Below are positions 24,700 to 50,161 of a stretch of 64,000 nt of DNA, piece by piece. Position 1 is the stretch's first letter, and the number at the start of each line of letters is the position of its first letter. A model generated the notes under the pieces. That model worked only from the letters and a program-made list of their open reading frames with translations. It was not told the DNA's origin and searched no databases. The stretch comes from Verrucomicrobiota bacterium (GTDB lineage Bacteria; Verrucomicrobiota; Verrucomicrobiia; Limisphaerales; J093). The translations under genes and the position numbers were made by a program. Where the stretch lies: the NCBI GenBank assembly GCA_022710935.1, contig JAKLFY010000003.1, positions 1-64,000 on the forward strand, read 5' to 3'.

Positions 24700-25058
24700 T
24701 TGAAACACGAGGGACCGTCCCAGGTTTTCCATGAAAGTCGAGTTCAGAGTGCCGGATCGCAGGACCCGGCAGCGCCAATTCACGAAGACGAAAAGGCCGG
24801 AGGGGGGACGGCTCGTCCCCCGCCATCGCGAGTGAACACGGTGTTTCTCGGCGACGGGCCGTCGCCGCTCCGCTTCATGAATTGGCCCCGGGGGACCCGG
24901 CCTGGAGTTTGCGCATTATTCGGATTGGACTTCATCGCGCACTTCATCGCGCACTTCATCGATCCGTGGCGAGCAGCACTAACCCGGAAATCTCACCAGT
25001 GGGGCGGTCTCGGCATTCCTGACGGTCCGTGGGTGAGATCTCCAGGTCTATTCTGATG
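24700..25058. other. Intergenic hairpin cluster
   Basis: The first part of a 611-bp gene-free gap between the ceramidase-like gene and the FmdB gene. It holds several GC-rich hairpins: GGGGGACG / CGTCCCCC (24803-24821), GGCGAC / GTCGCC (24850-24866) and GGACCCGGC words near 24762 and 24892 like those in repeat family 1. Short open frames here merely translate these palindromes and are not called as genes. Confidence 0.55.
24929..24961 (+). repeat. 12-bp tandem repeat ACTTCATCGCGC
   Basis: Two full copies and a partial third copy of ACTTCATCGCGC in direct tandem. Short and non-coding; it may be a slippage product. Confidence 0.7.
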
Positions 25059-25129
25059 AGCCCGCATTTCAGGTGAAATGTGACGGTGACCGGTCAGATG
25101 ACATCAAAAGCTGGTGAGCAATGCGGGCT
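25059..25129 (+). repeat. Dispersed palindromic repeat family 2, copy A
   Basis: A 71-bp element bounded by the 12-base inverted repeat AGCCCGCATTTC / GAAATGCGGGCT in slightly degenerate form. It contains the perfect palindrome TGACCGGTCA and the stem CATTTCA-GG-TGAAATG. Its reverse complement recurs at 46967-47037 with the same length and only a handful of mismatches. No coding potential. Confidence 0.85.
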
Positions 25130-25255
25130 AAGAGGCACGGACATTCTCCCTGGATAAACTGAAGGTGTACGTCAAGGCCCTGCACGCGAAGTCATCACTG
25201 CCGCCCAGAATTGGCGTGCTTTGGGCGACTATTCTGGTTGAATGGCAGCCGCGGT

Positions 25256-28605: not shown

Positions 28606-28662
28606 CGGCGCGACACGGTGCGCCAGAAAGGCGTTTCCGGGCAAGAACAACCCTGCGGGCAA

Positions 28663-28780
28663 TGCATCTGGAGGTTGTCGGTGGGGATCGAGTTTGCGCC
28701 GCGTGGGGGCACGCGGCCTCCACCGACAATCTCCATCCGTTGTAGGCCCGGTGACCTCACCGGGCGAACAACCAAATGCA
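28663..28780 (+). repeat. Dispersed palindromic repeat family 1, second full copy
   Basis: A 118-bp copy, strongly similar to 21225-21355. The left end is TGCATCTGGAGGTTGTCGG; the reverse complement of the right end is TGCATTTGGTTGTTCG. Here the outer segments also pair: GGAGGTTGTCGGTGG (from about 28670) with CCACCGACAATCTCC (from about 28720), enclosing the GCCGCGTG / CACGCGGC hairpin. It lies between the divergent GT4 and GH2-containing genes. Confidence 0.8.
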
Positions 28781-40436: not shown

Positions 40437-40913
40437 ATGAGCGCCGAGCGAATCAAGTGCGTACTGCTAGCGGACCGACACCACGGTTTGAGCGAAGGCC
40501 TGCGGTCATTGCTGGAGACCATCTTCGAGGCCGTCGTGATGGTGGCGGACGAGCATTCCCTGTTTGAAACTGCACGGCGGCTGCGACCGACCCTGGCGGT
40601 CGTGGACCTTTCCCTGGCCCGTGGCGAGAACCTCCGGTGGTTGGAGCAACTCCGGGCAATGTGCCCGGATCTGAAGATCATGGCGCTGAGCGTCCACGAC
40701 GAACCGAGCGTGCGGGAGGCCGCCTTGCAGGCCGGCGCGGATGCATTCGTCCTCAAACGCGCCATGGCGACGGACCTGTTACCCGCCGTCGATGCCGTTC
40801 TAGCTGGAGAACGGCAGGCCTGGCAAAGGCCAACCGCGCCTCACGCGATCACGCGAGGCAGTGGCAGTCAAACCACGGAAGGGATTCAGGAAGTTCCCGA
40901 TTCGTTACTATGA
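40437..40913 (+). CDS. Receiver-only response regulator-like protein
   Basis: A 158-residue protein of one receiver domain plus a short tail and no output domain. It resembles the RR above ('KCVLLADRHHGLSEGLRSLL') and keeps the phosphorylatable D57 ('LAVVDLSLA') and the Lys near the end ('FVLKRAM'). The first acidic pair is reduced to 'AD' (the second acid replaced by R), which would weaken Mg2+ binding. It may be a phosphate sink or a diverged regulator. Upstream (40240-40436) are two small hairpins, GGGG-TAA-CCCC near 40319 and GTTGCC-CTGT-GGCAAC at 40391-40406, which might be regulatory. Its position just before the decarboxylase suggests a link but no proof. Confidence 0.75.
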   Translation: MSAERIKCVLLADRHHGLSEGLRSLLETIFEAVVMVADEHSLFETARRLRPTLAVVDLSLARGENLRWLEQLRAMCPDLKIMALSVHDEPSVREAALQAGADAFVLKRAMATDLLPAVDAVLAGERQAWQRPTAPHAITRGSGSQTTEGIQEVPDSLL

Positions 40914-41044: not shown

Positions 41045-43816
41045 ATGAAAACAAATGAAAGAGCAGACTCGATCAAACCTCAGAACCAGACGCTGACCCC
41101 GATCTTCGCCGCCGCGGTGAACCGGACGGACCAATGGCGCGAGTTGCATGCGCTGAGCCGCGGGTGGGCGACGGCTCAGGGGGCCCAGGCGGAAGACTTG
41201 CGGGCCGAGGCCGCGAAACTCTTGCAGACCATCACCCGGTTGGAGCAATGCTGGGCCTACCCAGGTCCGCGTCTGCTGACCGCCATCGGTGCGGCCATCG
41301 CACAGCGGGATGCCGCGACCTTCGTGCGTCTCGTCCAGAAAGTCTCCGGCGCGCTGCTTTCGGGCGACTACCGGCGGGGTGAAGCCGCCTGGGATCCGGC
41401 GACCGAAAGCGCCATCCGCCCGCTCGAATCGGCGCTGCCTCCCGAGGTGGAAGTGGGCGAAACGCCGAAGCCGAGCTTCGAGGTGCTGGTTGTCACGCCG
41501 ACCGACCCGGCCACCTGGGAGCGGGGCAGAGCCGATCTGAAGCGCCTGCGACGACCCGAAGACCCTTTCCAATACGAGGTGGTTCAGGCGGGCAGCTTCG
41601 AGGACGCCGCCCTTGCGGTGTTGGTCAATGACAGCCTCCAGGCTGTGGTTCTCATCGACGGATTTCAGTACCGGTCGCGCCTCGAGATGCCGGACCTGCA
41701 GGCGTTTCTCGCGCGCTACCTGCCGACGGACCAAACGGCGATCGAACCGGGGGCGCTGGCCACGGTGTTGGCGAAGGCGATCAAGAAGTGCCGGCCCGAA
41801 CTGGACATCTATCTGCTCTCGGATCGCACGGCGGAAGCTCTGGCTGGCAGCGACGCCCTCGCCTCCGTGCGGCGGGTGTTTCATCACATCGAAGAGCCAA
41901 TGGAGATTCACCTGTCCATCCTCGACGGCGTCAAAGACCGCTTCGAGACCCCATACTTCGACAATCTCAAAAAGTACGCGCAGCGCCCCATCGGCACTTT
42001 CCATGCGCTGCCGATCGCCCGTGGAAAGTCCGTGTTCCGGTCGAACTGGATCCGGGACTTCGGTCAGTTCTACGGAACGAACATCTTCTTCGCGGAATCG
42101 TCGGCCACGACTGGCGGGCTGGACAGCCTGTTGGAGCCGACCGGCAACATCAAGAGGGCCCAGGAGATGGCCGCACGCGCGTTCGGGGCGAAGCGCGCCT
42201 ACCTCGGAACCAACGGCACCTCGACTTCGAACAAGATTGTCGTCCAGGCGGTGTGCAAGCCGGGCGACATCGTGATCGTGGATCGCAACTGTCACAAGTC
42301 GCACCACTACGGGATGGTGTTGAGCGGGGCCCAACCGTTCTACGTCGAGGCGTTTCCGCTCACCCAGTACTCGATGTACGGCGGCGTGCCGCTGCGGACG
42401 ATCAAGAAGGCACTGTTCGACTGCATGGCCGGGGGCAAGCTGGACCGCGTCAAGGTCATCGACATGACCAACTGCACCTTCGATGGGCACATGTACAATC
42501 CGCGACGGCTGATGGAGGAGTGCCTGGCGATCAAGCCCGATCTGATTTTCCTCTGGGACGAGGCCTGGTTTGGGTTCGCGCGTTTCAACCCGTTCCATCG
42601 ACGCCGCACGGCCATGGGCGCTGCCGCCGCCTTGACCGAGCGCTATCATGACCCGGCCTACCGCGAGGAGTACAAGTCCTGGGCGTCGAAAGTGGGCAAA
42701 CTCGATCCGAAGAACCCGAAGTTGCTGGACCTGCACCTGTTGCCCGATCCCGAGAAGGTTCGCATCCGGGTGTACCAGACCAACTCGACCCACAAGTCCA
42801 TGTCGGCATTCCGGCAGGGTTCGATGATGCTGATTTGGGACGAAGACTTCCACCAGGTCGAGGGTCCATTCGAAGAAGCATTCTTCGCTCACACGTCCAC
42901 CTCGCCCAACCTGCAGTTGATCGCGTCACTTGACGTGGCGCGCCGACAAATGGAGCTGGAAGGTTATGGCCTGACCTTGCGCATGACCGACATTGCGTTA
43001 CGCATCCGGCGCGCGGTCAACTCGCATCCGCTCGTCTCGAAGTACTTCCGAGTGGCCACGCCGGAGGACATGATTCCGGCCGAGTTCCGCGCCTCCGGAT
43101 TGAAGGACTACGGCCCGCCCTATTCCACCTGGACCGATGTCGTCAAGGCATGGGACGAGGATGAGTTCGCGCTCGACCCCACGCGGCTCACCCTGGTCTG
43201 CGGCGCCGCCGGGTTTGACGGCACGCAATTCAAGGGTCTGCTGGCGGACCGGTTCGACATCCAGATCAACAAGACGTCGCGCAATAGCGTGCTGGTGCAG
43301 ACGAACATCAACAACACGCACAGCGACGCCGCCCTGCTGATCAAAGCACTCGTCGATCTGTCGCGCGAGATCGAGCAGAAACTCGCCCAAGGCGGCCGCA
43401 CTGCGCTTGACGCCAGGGTCAAGTCGCTGATGACGGACGTGCCCGACCTGCCCAACTTCAGCCGGTTCCACGACGCCTTCCGCGATGACCCCAAGGCAGT
43501 GAGCAACGAGGGACATATGCGGCCCGCGTTCTTCATGGCCTACGATGAGTCCAACTGCGAGTACATCAAGCTGGCCAGCAAGGAAGTGGACGAGCGCCTC
43601 AAGAAAGGGCCGGAGATGGTGTCGGCGAACTTCGTCATTCCGTATCCGCCCGGCTTCCCAATCATGGTGCCAGGCCAAGTCATCACGGAAGACACAATCA
43701 CCTTCATGCGCAAGCTCGATGTGAAGGAGATCCACGGCTACCACGCGGCTCACGGTTTGAAACTCATCAAGCCCGACAAGTTGCGTGCCCCCAGTGCCAA
43801 GAAGGCCGCCAAGTAA
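41045..43816 (+). CDS. PLP-dependent Orn/Lys/Arg decarboxylase family enzyme
   Basis: A 923-residue fold-type I decarboxylase, longer than the usual 710-755 residues of biodegradative enzymes. The N-terminal part includes a wing-type domain ('FEVLVVTPTDPATWERG', 'LQAVVLIDGFQY'). The PLP domain has 'TNGTSTSNK', 'DRNCHKSHHYG', 'LIFLWDEAWFGFA' and the PLP lysine K584 in 'NSTHKSMSAFRQGSMM'. The C-terminal domain is typical. It removes CO2 from a basic or acidic amino acid, consuming a proton. Substrate cannot be fixed from motifs, but the two AspT-type exchangers immediately downstream suggest an amino acid/amine or Asp/Ala exchange cycle for acid resistance. The ATG at 41045 gives the normal start; the open frame reaches into the preceding gene. 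Confidence 0.88.
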   Translation: MKTNERADSIKPQNQTLTPIFAAAVNRTDQWRELHALSRGWATAQGAQAEDLRAEAAKLLQTITRLEQCWAYPGPRLLTAIGAAIAQRDAATFVRLVQKVSGALLSGDYRRGEAAWDPATESAIRPLESALPPEVEVGETPKPSFEVLVVTPTDPATWERGRADLKRLRRPEDPFQYEVVQAGSFEDAALAVLVNDSLQAVVLIDGFQYRSRLEMPDLQAFLARYLPTDQTAIEPGALATVLAKAIKKCRPELDIYLLSDRTAEALAGSDALASVRRVFHHIEEPMEIHLSILDGVKDRFETPYFDNLKKYAQRPIGTFHALPIARGKSVFRSNWIRDFGQFYGTNIFFAESSATTGGLDSLLEPTGNIKRAQEMAARAFGAKRAYLGTNGTSTSNKIVVQAVCKPGDIVIVDRNCHKSHHYGMVLSGAQPFYVEAFPLTQYSMYGGVPLRTIKKALFDCMAGGKLDRVKVIDMTNCTFDGHMYNPRRLMEECLAIKPDLIFLWDEAWFGFARFNPFHRRRTAMGAAAALTERYHDPAYREEYKSWASKVGKLDPKNPKLLDLHLLPDPEKVRIRVYQTNSTHKSMSAFRQGSMMLIWDEDFHQVEGPFEEAFFAHTSTSPNLQLIASLDVARRQMELEGYGLTLRMTDIALRIRRAVNSHPLVSKYFRVATPEDMIPAEFRASGLKDYGPPYSTWTDVVKAWDEDEFALDPTRLTLVCGAAGFDGTQFKGLLADRFDIQINKTSRNSVLVQTNINNTHSDAALLIKALVDLSREIEQKLAQGGRTALDARVKSLMTDVPDLPNFSRFHDAFRDDPKAVSNEGHMRPAFFMAYDESNCEYIKLASKEVDERLKKGPEMVSANFVIPYPPGFPIMVPGQVITEDTITFMRKLDVKEIHGYHAAHGLKLIKPDKLRAPSAKKAAK

Positions 43817-43856
43817 ACCGTCGATCATTCGCCTCGAGCAAGAAAGGACTCCGCCG

Positions 43857-45557
43857 ATGCAAGCATTCTTCGAATTCCTCAAAGCGAACCCCTACATCCT
43901 CCTGTTCTTCACGATCGGGATGGCGGTGTATGTGGGGAAGTTCAACATTAAAGGTTACGGGTTGGGCATGGTTGCCGCGGCAGTCGTCGTCGGTTGCGCG
44001 CTGGCTACGTGGGCCTCGACCTATGGTGTCAAACTCCAGCTCGATAACTTCGCCAAGTCGCTCTTCTACTACCTGTTCATGTATGGGGTCGGTTTGCGCG
44101 TCGGGCCTTCGTTCTTCAACAGCCTGAAGAAGGACGGGTTGAAGTTCACGATCCTGGCCGTCATATGCAGCGTGCTCGGCCTGGTGCTCGTGGTGCTCGG
44201 GGCGAGGCTGTTCGGCCTGCCCCCTGGTGCGGCAGGCGGCATTCTCGCCGGCTCGCAAACCATGTCCGCCGCCATCGGCACGGCGGAAATGGCGGTGACG
44301 CAGGGCGCTTACAAGGTTCCGGCCGGCAGCACTGCCGAGGCGGTGTCGGCCATGATCGCGCTCGGCTACGGAGTGACCTATATCTGGGGCACGGTCGGGA
44401 TCATTCTCATCTGCAAATACCTGCCGCGCTGGTGGGGCCTGGACGCGAAGACGGCAGCCAAGGAATATGAACAGGCCCACGGCGTTGCCAACGTAGACGA
44501 CGCCGGCCTCAGCGGCTACCGGCCGGTCGGGCTCCGCGCTTACAGGCTCGAAAATCCGGCTTCGGCGGGCAAGACCATTGCCCAGTTGCGCAGCGGCTAC
44601 CCTCAATACCGCGTCCTGAACGTGGTCCGGGCGGGTGAGTCGCTCGGCGCCGACGCCGGGCTGCGCCTGGAGAAGGGCGATATCGTGGCGTTCGCGGGCA
44701 AAGTCGAGGATTTAACCTCGAACATGGGCCTGCTCGGACCCGAAGTGCCGGACGCAAGGGCACTGAGCATCCCGCTCGATCAGGCCGAGATCCTGATCAC
44801 CGAGAAGGCCGTGGAAGGCCGCGCGCTGAAGGAATTCCGCGACGAGGATTTTGCCGGACAATTACAGGTCGTGAAACTGGAGCGCGGCGGTGTGCCCGTG
44901 CCCGTCGGCGCGGACACGCAGCTCAAGCGCTTCGACGTCTTGTTTGTGGTGGGCCTCAAGGCGGCGGTGAACAAGGTGGTCGAGAGAATCGGCAAGGTCG
45001 CGCGACCGAGCACGGCCACGGACCTCTTGACCTTGTCCGTCGGCATGGTCGCCGGCCTCCTCATCGGGCAGATCAACGTGCCAATCGGCAGCTTCTCCGT
45101 CGGCCTCGGCAACGCGGGCGGCCTGCTGCTGTCGGGCATCTTCGTCTCGTCGATTGTTTCGCGTCTGCGGTTCTTTGGCAGCACGCCCAACGCGGCCCGG
45201 AATGTCCTCGAAGACCTGGGCTTGGTGACGTTCATCGCGATTGTCGGCATCAATGCGGGTGCGACGCTGTTGGCCCAACTGACAGGCAAGATCGCGTTGT
45301 TCATCTTCCTGGCAGGTTTCATCGCCAGCACGATCCCGCCCATTCTCACTTGGGCCATTGGCTATCACCTGATGAAGATCAACCCGGCCGTGCTCATGGG
45401 CGGTGTCGCCGGCGCGCGTTCGCACTCGGGCCCGTGCCGGGAGGCGGCCAAGGAAATCCAGAGCAGTGTTCCGTGGGTGGGCTTCCCGGTGGGGTATGCC
45501 GTGTCCGGGGTGCTGCTGACGGTCTTTGGCTACTTCGCGATGGTGCTCTCGAAGTGA
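43857..45557 (+). CDS. aspT: Aspartate:alanine exchanger family transporter (AspT-like)
   Basis: A 566-residue inner-membrane antiporter. Two five- to six-helix Asp-Al_Ex repeats (about 10-185 and 395-565) flank two TrkA-C-like cytoplasmic domains (e.g. 'VVRAGESLGADAGLRLEKGD'). Repeat motifs include 'GAAGGILAGSQTMSAAIG' and 'GVAGARSHSGPC'. The strong Shine-Dalgarno AAGGA at 43844-43848 supports ATG 43857. With the decarboxylase it can generate a proton-motive cycle: import substrate, decarboxylate, export product. In Tetragenococcus the aspD-aspT pair does this with Asp and Ala. Here the decarboxylase class differs, so the actual substrates are open. Confidence 0.9.
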   Translation: MQAFFEFLKANPYILLFFTIGMAVYVGKFNIKGYGLGMVAAAVVVGCALATWASTYGVKLQLDNFAKSLFYYLFMYGVGLRVGPSFFNSLKKDGLKFTILAVICSVLGLVLVVLGARLFGLPPGAAGGILAGSQTMSAAIGTAEMAVTQGAYKVPAGSTAEAVSAMIALGYGVTYIWGTVGIILICKYLPRWWGLDAKTAAKEYEQAHGVANVDDAGLSGYRPVGLRAYRLENPASAGKTIAQLRSGYPQYRVLNVVRAGESLGADAGLRLEKGDIVAFAGKVEDLTSNMGLLGPEVPDARALSIPLDQAEILITEKAVEGRALKEFRDEDFAGQLQVVKLERGGVPVPVGADTQLKRFDVLFVVGLKAAVNKVVERIGKVARPSTATDLLTLSVGMVAGLLIGQINVPIGSFSVGLGNAGGLLLSGIFVSSIVSRLRFFGSTPNAARNVLEDLGLVTFIAIVGINAGATLLAQLTGKIALFIFLAGFIASTIPPILTWAIGYHLMKINPAVLMGGVAGARSHSGPCREAAKEIQSSVPWVGFPVGYAVSGVLLTVFGYFAMVLSK

Positions 45558-45567
45558 TGATCCGATT

Positions 45568-46959
45568 ATGCCCTGGCTCACCCAACTGTTCACCAAGAAC
45601 CCCGAGTTGGCGGTCTATCTCGCACTCGGACTCGGTTATGCGATCGGGAACCTGAAGTTCCGCGGGTTCAGCTTGGGTGGGGCGACCGGCTCGCTGCTCG
45701 CAGGTATCCTGATCGGCGCCCTCGTGAAAGTGCCGGTCGCCGCGATGGCCAAATCGGTCGTGTTTCTCCTGTTCATGTTCGGCATCGGCTACTCGGTCGG
45801 GCCGAAGTTCTTCAAGGCCATGAAAGGCCAAGGGTGGCGGTTCGGTGTCCTCGGGGCCTTCGTGCCGGTCGTCGGTCTGGTCACCGCGTGGGTGGTGGCC
45901 AGCGTCCTGAAGCTGGACCTCGGCTTTGCTGGCGGCCTCGTCTCGGGGGCGCTGACCGAATCGCCTGCGATCGGCACCGCCAGTGAGGCCATCCAGGCGC
46001 TCACGAACATCCCGGACGAGACCAAGCAGAAACTGATCAGCCACGTCGCGGTGGCGGACGCGCTCTGCTATGTGTTCGGCGCGTTCGGCGTCATTTATGT
46101 CTGTGGCACACTGGGGCCCAAGCTGTTGGGCATCGACCTTCGGGCCGAGGCCGAGAAAGTCGAGGCGGACTACGGTGTCGTGCGCACGAAAGCGGGCACC
46201 GTCGGGCAGACCTGGAGTACCTTCTACGATCCGGATTCGTTTCCGGACACGTTGGACTTCGAAGGGCCTGGGGTGTTGCCCGTCGTCCGTCAACCCGAAC
46301 TCCGTTACACGCTCCCGCTCATCAAGCAGAAGATGTACGCGGCGGTTGCCATCGAGCAGCCCAAGAGCGATCTGAGCAACCTTCCTGAGGGCGCCGACGG
46401 ACGCAACACGATGCCGGATTTCGCTGGCAATTGGCGCTGGGAAGGCAAGCCGGGCCACATCCAAGTCGGTGGAATCCTGCGCAGCCTCTCCTACGATAAC
46501 AACGCCGGCCCCGACGATTCCGCGATGGGGTGGGGACTGAACGTCTCCGGCGGGCTGAAGACGTTCGGCTCGGACAGCCTCGTCGCCACCCTCAGCTACG
46601 GCGACGGCATTGGCCGGTACATCCAGGATCTCCCCAGCGGCAGTGCTGGCGTGGTGGATGCGTTGGGCGATCTGCATTTGCTCAGGGCGTGGGGAGCGAT
46701 GCTCGGCTACCGGCACCAATGGAGCGAGAAGTGGCGATCCACCGTCAGCTATGGATACGTGCAGTTGGATAGCAGCTCGGAACAGGGCGACTTCGCCTAC
46801 GACCAGACCCACTATGCCCAGGCTAATCTTATCTGGGCGCCCACGAAGAACTTCTACGTGGGCCTCGAATATCTGTACGGGCGCAAAGAGGCCCAGAACG
46901 GCAACAGCGGTGACGATCATCGCGTGCAACTCAGCCTCCAGTACAAGCTGGTGCGATGA
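45568..46959 (+). CDS. AspT N-terminal half fused in frame to DcaP-like outer-membrane porin C-terminal half
   Basis: A 463-residue chimera. Residues 1 to about 206 are the first membrane repeat of an AspT-type exchanger ('ELAVYLALGLGYAIGNLKFR', 'GALTESPAIGTASEA', 'LGIDLRAEAEKVEADYG'). From about residue 210 the sequence is a DcaP-like porin: 'VGQTWSTFYDPDSFPDTLDF', 'LRYT', 'GNWRWEGKPGHIQVGGILRS', and a barrel end 'QLSLQYKLVR'. The join is near 46190-46205. Missing are the TrkA-C and second repeat of AspT, and the signal peptide and N-terminal strands of the porin. A single protein cannot sit in both membranes, so this is probably a non-functional deletion fusion. ATG 45568 follows the upstream stop by 10 bp. 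Confidence 0.88.
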   Translation: MPWLTQLFTKNPELAVYLALGLGYAIGNLKFRGFSLGGATGSLLAGILIGALVKVPVAAMAKSVVFLLFMFGIGYSVGPKFFKAMKGQGWRFGVLGAFVPVVGLVTAWVVASVLKLDLGFAGGLVSGALTESPAIGTASEAIQALTNIPDETKQKLISHVAVADALCYVFGAFGVIYVCGTLGPKLLGIDLRAEAEKVEADYGVVRTKAGTVGQTWSTFYDPDSFPDTLDFEGPGVLPVVRQPELRYTLPLIKQKMYAAVAIEQPKSDLSNLPEGADGRNTMPDFAGNWRWEGKPGHIQVGGILRSLSYDNNAGPDDSAMGWGLNVSGGLKTFGSDSLVATLSYGDGIGRYIQDLPSGSAGVVDALGDLHLLRAWGAMLGYRHQWSEKWRSTVSYGYVQLDSSSEQGDFAYDQTHYAQANLIWAPTKNFYVGLEYLYGRKEAQNGNSGDDHRVQLSLQYKLVR

Positions 46960-46966
46960 ACCCCTT

Positions 46967-47037
46967 AGCCCGCATTTCTCACCAACTTCTGATGTTATCT
47001 GACCGGTCACCGACACATTTCACCTGAAATGCGGGCT
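46967..47037 (-). repeat. Dispersed palindromic repeat family 2, copy B (opposite orientation)
   Basis: 71 bp, equal in length to copy A (25059-25129) and matching its reverse complement except at a few positions (for example GATAACATCAGAAGTTGGTGAG here versus a similar stretch there with three or four changes). Ends: AGCCCGCATTTC and GAAATGCGGGCT. It begins 8 bases after the stop of the fusion ORF and may also act as a transcript-end hairpin. Confidence 0.85.
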
Positions 47038-47148
47038 CTCAGCCATTTTCTCAAACGTCGGCGGTGGACGCGTCAGCGAAGCTCCGCAAGATGGATACGA
47101 TCTGGACGGAACGACAAGGCCGCGGTCCGTTGAAGTCGAATTTGCCTC

Positions 47149-48999: not shown

Positions 49000-49230
49000 A
49001 TGGAAATCCTGCTCCTCGGCATATACTCCTTCTTTGTCTGGCTGATCTTTTTCAAGTTTAAGTGGCTCCCCTGGAACATCGTTAGTCAGGTCATCACCAT
49101 CACCCTTCCGATTCTCGGGCTGACCGTGCTGATTCTGCTGTTGAATATTGTCGCGCCCTCCTCCCACGATGTGCGGGTGGTGAACTATGTTGGCGGCCAC
49201 AATCGCCAGGAGTTGGTTCACGGCGAGTGA
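49000..49230 (+). pseudogene. HlyD-family membrane fusion protein, N-terminal remnant
   Basis: Only 76 codons. The first 62 residues ('MEILLLGIYSFFVWLIFFKF', a second TM 'VITITLPILGLTVLILLLNI', then 'PSSHDVRVVNY') match the start of YiaV/YibH-like HlyD proteins. These normally continue for about 300 more residues with biotinyl-lipoyl and coiled-coil domains. From 'VGGHNRQELVHGE' it reads out of frame through the following NodT-like gene and stops. The break point is near 49187. It cannot be functional as an adaptor. Confidence 0.82.
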
Positions 49231-50161
49231 AACCTGGCTTCAGCTCCGGATCGCCGAGGACATGGTCCTGGCGGCACGGCAGTTGCTGACGCTCGCCGAG
49301 ACGCGGCGTCGAATCGGTCCCGGCAGCGAACAGGAAATTGCCCTGGCCCGCGCCGCCCTGGCCACCTACCAGGACACGGCCAGGCAAGTGCGATTCGCTC
49401 ATGAGCAGACCCTGCGCGCCCTGGAACTGCTGCTCGGCCGGTACCCTGCGGCAGAACTCGAGGCTCGCCGCGACCTGGCTGCCCTCCCGAGCGCGATTCC
49501 CGCCGGTCTGCCGCTTGACATGTTGGAACGGCGCCCCGACGTGGTCGCCGCGGAACGCCGGGTGGCCGCCGCCTTTCATCGCGTGGGGGAGGCGAAGGCC
49601 GCGCGGCTGCCGCGCCTCATCCTCAATGCCAATGTCGCGGCCATCGACAGCGACATTCTCCAGTTGAAGCAGGATTTCGAGAACCCGACCGGCGGCGCCG
49701 GAGCCAAGCTCCTCGCTCCCATCTACCAGGGCGGCGCCCTCAAGACACAGGTCGAGATCCGCTCGCTCGAGCAGGAGCAAGCGGTGGCCGAATACGCCCG
49801 CATCTCCCTCCGCGCGTTGAGCGAAGTCGAGAACTCGCTTTCGACCGCCCGGGCGTTAGGCGAACGCCAGCATTTCCTCGAGCAGGCGGCGACTGAGAAT
49901 CAGCGCGCGCTCGATCTGGCCCAGACCAACTACCGTATCGGCCAAGGGGATTTGCGGGCGGTAGAGCAACAGCAGCTCAACCTTCACGCGGCCCGGTTGG
50001 CCCTGCTGCGCGTGCAGAGCGAGCAACTGGCCCAGCGCGTGAATCTGCATTTGTCGCTCGGCGGCAGCTTCGAGCCAACCACGGTGGCAGAAGCAAACCG
50101 GACCATCGAGCAAACCGAACGACCAACACCACACGCGAACAGTCGCCATCAAGGGACCTGA
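49187..50161 (+). pseudogene. NodT/TolC-family outer-membrane efflux protein lacking its N-terminus
   Basis: A 324-codon frame beginning 'MLAATIARSWFTASETWLQL', which corresponds to an internal region of NodT-family proteins. It includes 'LPLDMLERRPDVVAAERRVA' and 'AEYARISLRALSEVENSLST', the canonical NodT motifs, and the helical tail to 'LSLGGSF'. The signal/lipobox and first roughly 180 residues are missing, so it cannot reach the outer membrane in normal form. Its start overlaps the HlyD remnant in another frame. A single deletion joining the middle of hlyD to the middle of the efflux gene explains both. Confidence 0.8.

Follow-up and report, generated by a model that had tools for sequence, protein, structure and literature searches.

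An open frame joining an AspT-type exchanger to a DcaP-like porin in a Verrucomicrobiota draft genome is probably the scar of a recent 1887-bp deletion

Here we analyse a 463-aa open reading frame (45568-46959) that consists of the N-terminal repeat of an AspT-type exchanger followed, in frame, by the C-terminal part of a DcaP-like porin. By comparing this locus with relatives in which the two genes stand apart, we come to the view that it is probably the scar of a real, recent 1887-bp deletion within a conserved gene cluster, and that its product is most likely non-functional. Positions refer to the window, the whole 64,000-nt stretch of DNA that was analysed (1-64000 of a 164.6-kb contig), which belongs to a draft genome of 7.5 Mb in 259 contigs with an estimated contamination of 4.3%; the window contains no N. 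Features are collected in Table 1.

Results

The two parts of the open frame match different protein families at levels far beyond chance. The exchanger model TIGR03802 is matched by residues 3-202 (1.8e-64, 218.4 bits), within which Pfam Asp-Al_Ex hits residues 16-179 (4e-33). The match to the DcaP model PF19577 (3e-12) extends over residues 210-459; its score of 46.7 bits exceeds the gathering score of 27, although it covers only positions 163-408 of 410. By sequence, the exchanger half also aligns with chain residues 10-204 of AspT structures that have been solved (8xw5 and others), and residues 210-460 align with the DcaP structure 6eus (chain residues 136-379). At the amino acid level, each remnant is 83% identical to its intact counterpart in the relative G004, which for the porin is a frame of 508 aa.

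Both halves are incomplete. A single Asp-Al_Ex repeat is present, against two in the intact AspT2 of G004, and the TrkA_C domains, of which G004 AspT2 and the adjoining AspT1 have two each, are absent. The open frame misses the TIGR03802 cut-off of 546.95, a threshold that alone cannot separate broken from complete exchangers, as AspT1 also falls below it (402.9) while covering positions 2-561 of 562 (2e-120) with two membrane repeats. Across the first repeat, AspT2 and AspT1 are only ~32% identical. The porin part lacks the N-terminal half of the 508-aa relative, and so has neither a signal peptide nor a complete barrel; the predicted structure of the product, too uncertain to rely on (mean pLDDT 51), contains helices followed by strands and no complete porin. 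These results agree with the original prediction, which had described the first repeat of an AspT exchanger fused in frame to the C-terminal half of a DcaP-like porin, both lacking essential parts, next to a complete aspT gene. The join that it placed near 46190-46205 maps within that range, at 46197/46198, and the two halves, for which it proposed separate profile searches, match TIGR03802 and Asp-Al_Ex on one side and PF19577 on the other.

Table 1. Features of the cluster and its surroundings, in window coordinates
Feature	Position	Strand	Basis or remark
Orn/Lys/Arg-type decarboxylase, first gene of the conserved cluster	41093..43816	+	PF01276, 3e-68
aspT1, complete AspT-type exchanger with two TrkA_C domains	43854..45557	+	Profile matches
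aspT2 5' remnant, codons 1-210, first membrane repeat of an AspT-type exchanger	45568..46197	+	TIGR03802 positions 2-199 of 562
First junction, probable deletion	46197..46198	+	1887 bp missing against G004, G013 and G104/JAHCLO
DcaP-like porin gene 3' remnant, ~254 C-terminal codons and stop	46198..46959	+	PF19577 positions 163-408
Short interspersed repeat copy, directly past the stop of the fused open frame	46963..47042	.	>15 copies in the same-genus genome G001
HlyD-type gene 5' remnant, 76-aa frame, last ~12 residues out of frame	49000..49230	+	Comparison with relatives
Second junction, probable deletion, HlyD-type gene joined out of frame to outer-membrane efflux gene	49190..49191	+	~1506 bp missing
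Outer-membrane efflux protein (OEP family) 3' remnant, N-terminal part lost	49184..50161	+	Comparison with relatives

The ancestral gene order is seen in three Verrucomicrobiota MAGs of the same order, G004, G013 and G104 (L030, JAHCLO), in which the decarboxylase, aspT1, aspT2 and porin genes follow one another unfused, aspT2 (579-656 aa) and the porin (507-508 aa) both having complete open frames. In the window, the 5' boundary of the decarboxylase was set by homology, its open frame starting at 40637 and its DNA being 82% identical to that of G004 from 41094. The window aligns continuously with each relative up to ~46197 and resumes at 46198, leaving a gap of exactly 1887 bp (629 codons) in all three comparisons. 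Since aspT2 and the porin gene lie in the same frame modulo three in the relatives, and since 1887 is 3 x 629, the join stays open. Its edges share in the relatives at most 1-2 bp of possible microhomology and no common repeat, and a search of this draft assembly for the lost halves of aspT2 and of the porin gene located neither, whether on another contig or in any other copy.

Either a deletion of at least 1 kb or a collapsed assembly had been put forward for this locus, together with a search of related genomes for the unfused genes. The 1887 bp absent against three relatives with aspT2 and porin side by side bear out both the expected size and the expected arrangement. Collapse in the strict, repeat-driven sense is disfavoured by edges that share no repeat, and it is as a faulty assembly more generally that the second alternative stands.

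The fused architecture itself appears to be confined to this genome. No match crossing the join at residue 210 turned up among 320 genomes from the order or in a sample of 388 from the phylum. Of the relatives listed there, each matches on one side of the join, exchanger or porin, and not on both, and no family of fused homologues emerged there or among seven compared loci from other genomes.

Exchanger and porin genes are found ~3-8 kb apart in several families of the phylum (G461:C86, G608:C91, G687:C17, G265:C767, G268:C16). This suggests a conserved uptake and exchange module of AspT-type exchangers and DcaP-like porins; because the two genes lie close together in several genomes and are fused in none of them, the association is old and the fusion private. 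AspT takes aspartate in and alanine out (PMC9527358), and Acinetobacter needs a DcaP porin to grow on di- and tricarboxylic acids (PMC12338516). Given these substrates, the pairing makes biological sense, and the porin of this cluster may have fed the exchangers.

A second gap lies 3 kb downstream of the first, measuring 1506 bp against G004 and G104 and 1503 bp against G013, and likewise has no repeat at its join. Codons 1 to ~64 of the HlyD-type gene are retained before this junction. The second deletion is plainly destructive, with both the HlyD-type and the efflux gene wrecked. Comparisons of G004, G013 and G104 with one another turned up a single such gap over comparable stretches.

The wider contig was compared with G001, a genome of the same genus with ~92% DNA identity to this one. 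G001 lacks a 42.8-kb block of contig C183 (33203-75968), with the whole cluster inside, and has 413 bp in its place; the block is possibly an accessory island, or possibly a loss in G001. More than 15 places in G001 also carry the repeat seen at 46963-47042, which argues that the block is native to the genus and not foreign contamination. The copy at 46963-47042 sits 766 bp from the first join and at neither of its edges. More short interspersed repeats of 75-150 bp, with many copies in G001, lie at 24763-25140 and 28660-28767, and some of these repeats mark insertions that differ between the two genomes. Elsewhere on the contig, the comparison with G001 yields clean gene-level gains and losses along with many short repeats; examples are a metallophosphoesterase-like gene missing near 133833 and a 4.1-kb stretch at 135184-139323.

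Age and selection were addressed with a codon model that gives the window lineage a separate rate. On that lineage, the aspT2 part, for which the test lacks power, has a dN/dS of 0.04-0.05; the porin part has 0.09-0.10 and the broken efflux fragment 0.10, and none of the three differs from the background. In the porin part and the efflux fragment, neutral evolution along the whole branch is rejected, by 4.6 and 5.2 log units, respectively. A fragment that is certainly broken is thus as well preserved as the porin half, so the low values are not evidence of selection on the fusion; rather, they reflect the time before the deletion, and we set branch dN/dS aside as a test of function for either half. 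Private amino acid changes are few, with 3 in the aspT2 part on the window lineage against 9, 29 and 7 in the relatives, and 7 in the porin part against 9, 12 and 18, which fits a deletion that came long after these species diverged. At the sequence level, both fusion halves and the dead efflux fragment still look pristine, the open frame carrying no later damage, which means that the losses are either very recent or present only in the assembly.

Discussion

We infer that the 1887 bp were lost in the cells themselves, and not merely from the assembly, and we hold this to be the probable origin of the fused open frame. A single event would have taken out the back half of aspT2, the front half of the porin gene and the intergenic DNA between them, and would have joined the remaining ends of the two genes into one open frame. 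It might have proceeded by replication slippage, or by the joining of ends that share little or no homology; a search of the genome for Ku gave no match, which leaves classical, Ku-dependent bacterial end joining a less than obvious route. The position of the locus inside the block that G001 lacks and the second gene-wrecking deletion just 3 kb away count in favour of a real deletion. Counting against it are the two blunt gaps within 3 kb, both multiples of three, a coincidence which a common artefact could also explain, and an open frame that has stayed undamaged since.

That artefact is the main rival: the cells would hold complete aspT2 and porin genes, and the assembly (or a mixture of strains) would have omitted 1.9 kb at this locus and a further 1.5 kb at 49190. 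Both halves and the efflux fragment are as well kept as intact genes, two clean gaps on one contig exceed what the three relatives show among themselves, and the genome is a fragmented draft with some estimated contamination, all of which would suit such a fault. Neither join, however, has a repeat, the window is free of N, and the missing pieces are not on other contigs. With no repeat at the first join to invite collapse, we favour the recent deletion and regard the artefact as the unlikelier account, albeit one to be taken seriously.

Under the deletion, the product is likely to be non-functional or unstable, as judged from the known anatomy of the AspT and DcaP families. AspT needs both inverted repeats, and a porin part deprived of its signal peptide and first strands would have no route to the outer membrane. 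A residual role for one half alone, such as regulation of AspT1 or a dimer contact with it, has in its favour that AspT is dimeric (PMC9527358) and that an intact aspT1 adjoins; the ~32% identity over the repeat and the lack of evidence of mixed dimers make it very improbable. Least probable of all is a selected, stably expressed chimera in which the exchanger repeat anchors the half barrel in the membrane as a strand domain, for although the frame is open across the join and the porin part has a low dN/dS, the certainly broken efflux fragment gives the same value, the aspT2 part offers no power, no spanning homologue was found in the genomes searched, and the porin part follows an inner-membrane repeat with no signal peptide of its own. 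The earlier suggestion of an unusual protein accordingly finds no support, given the incomplete halves, the solitary architecture and the out-of-frame deletion nearby.

A plausible-looking two-membrane "fusion protein" that would be annotated as one gene can thus arise from no more than an internal deletion, or from a fault in a draft assembly. If real, the deletion cost the genome one of two tandem exchangers as well as the only porin of the DcaP-like type found in the assembly, leaving the transport cluster with AspT1 alone at best.

Compared with known systems, the fused open frame resembles the AspT family (TC 2.A.81, TIGR03802; 8xw5, 8y1x, 9veb, 9oqy) in that residues 3-202 align with the N-terminal repeat, and differs from it in having neither of the TrkA_C domains and nothing of the second membrane repeat. 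Its likeness to the DcaP family (PF19577; 6eus) lies in residues 210-460, which align with 6eus positions 136-379 and with the C-terminal part of PF19577, whereas it has no signal peptide, no N-terminal extension and none of the first barrel strands. A third parallel is with in-frame deletion chimeras of adjacent genes, with which it shares co-directional neighbours, an internal deletion, intact relatives and an absence of spanning homologues; we found no difference from these, the locus here being accompanied by a second, out-of-frame deletion nearby.
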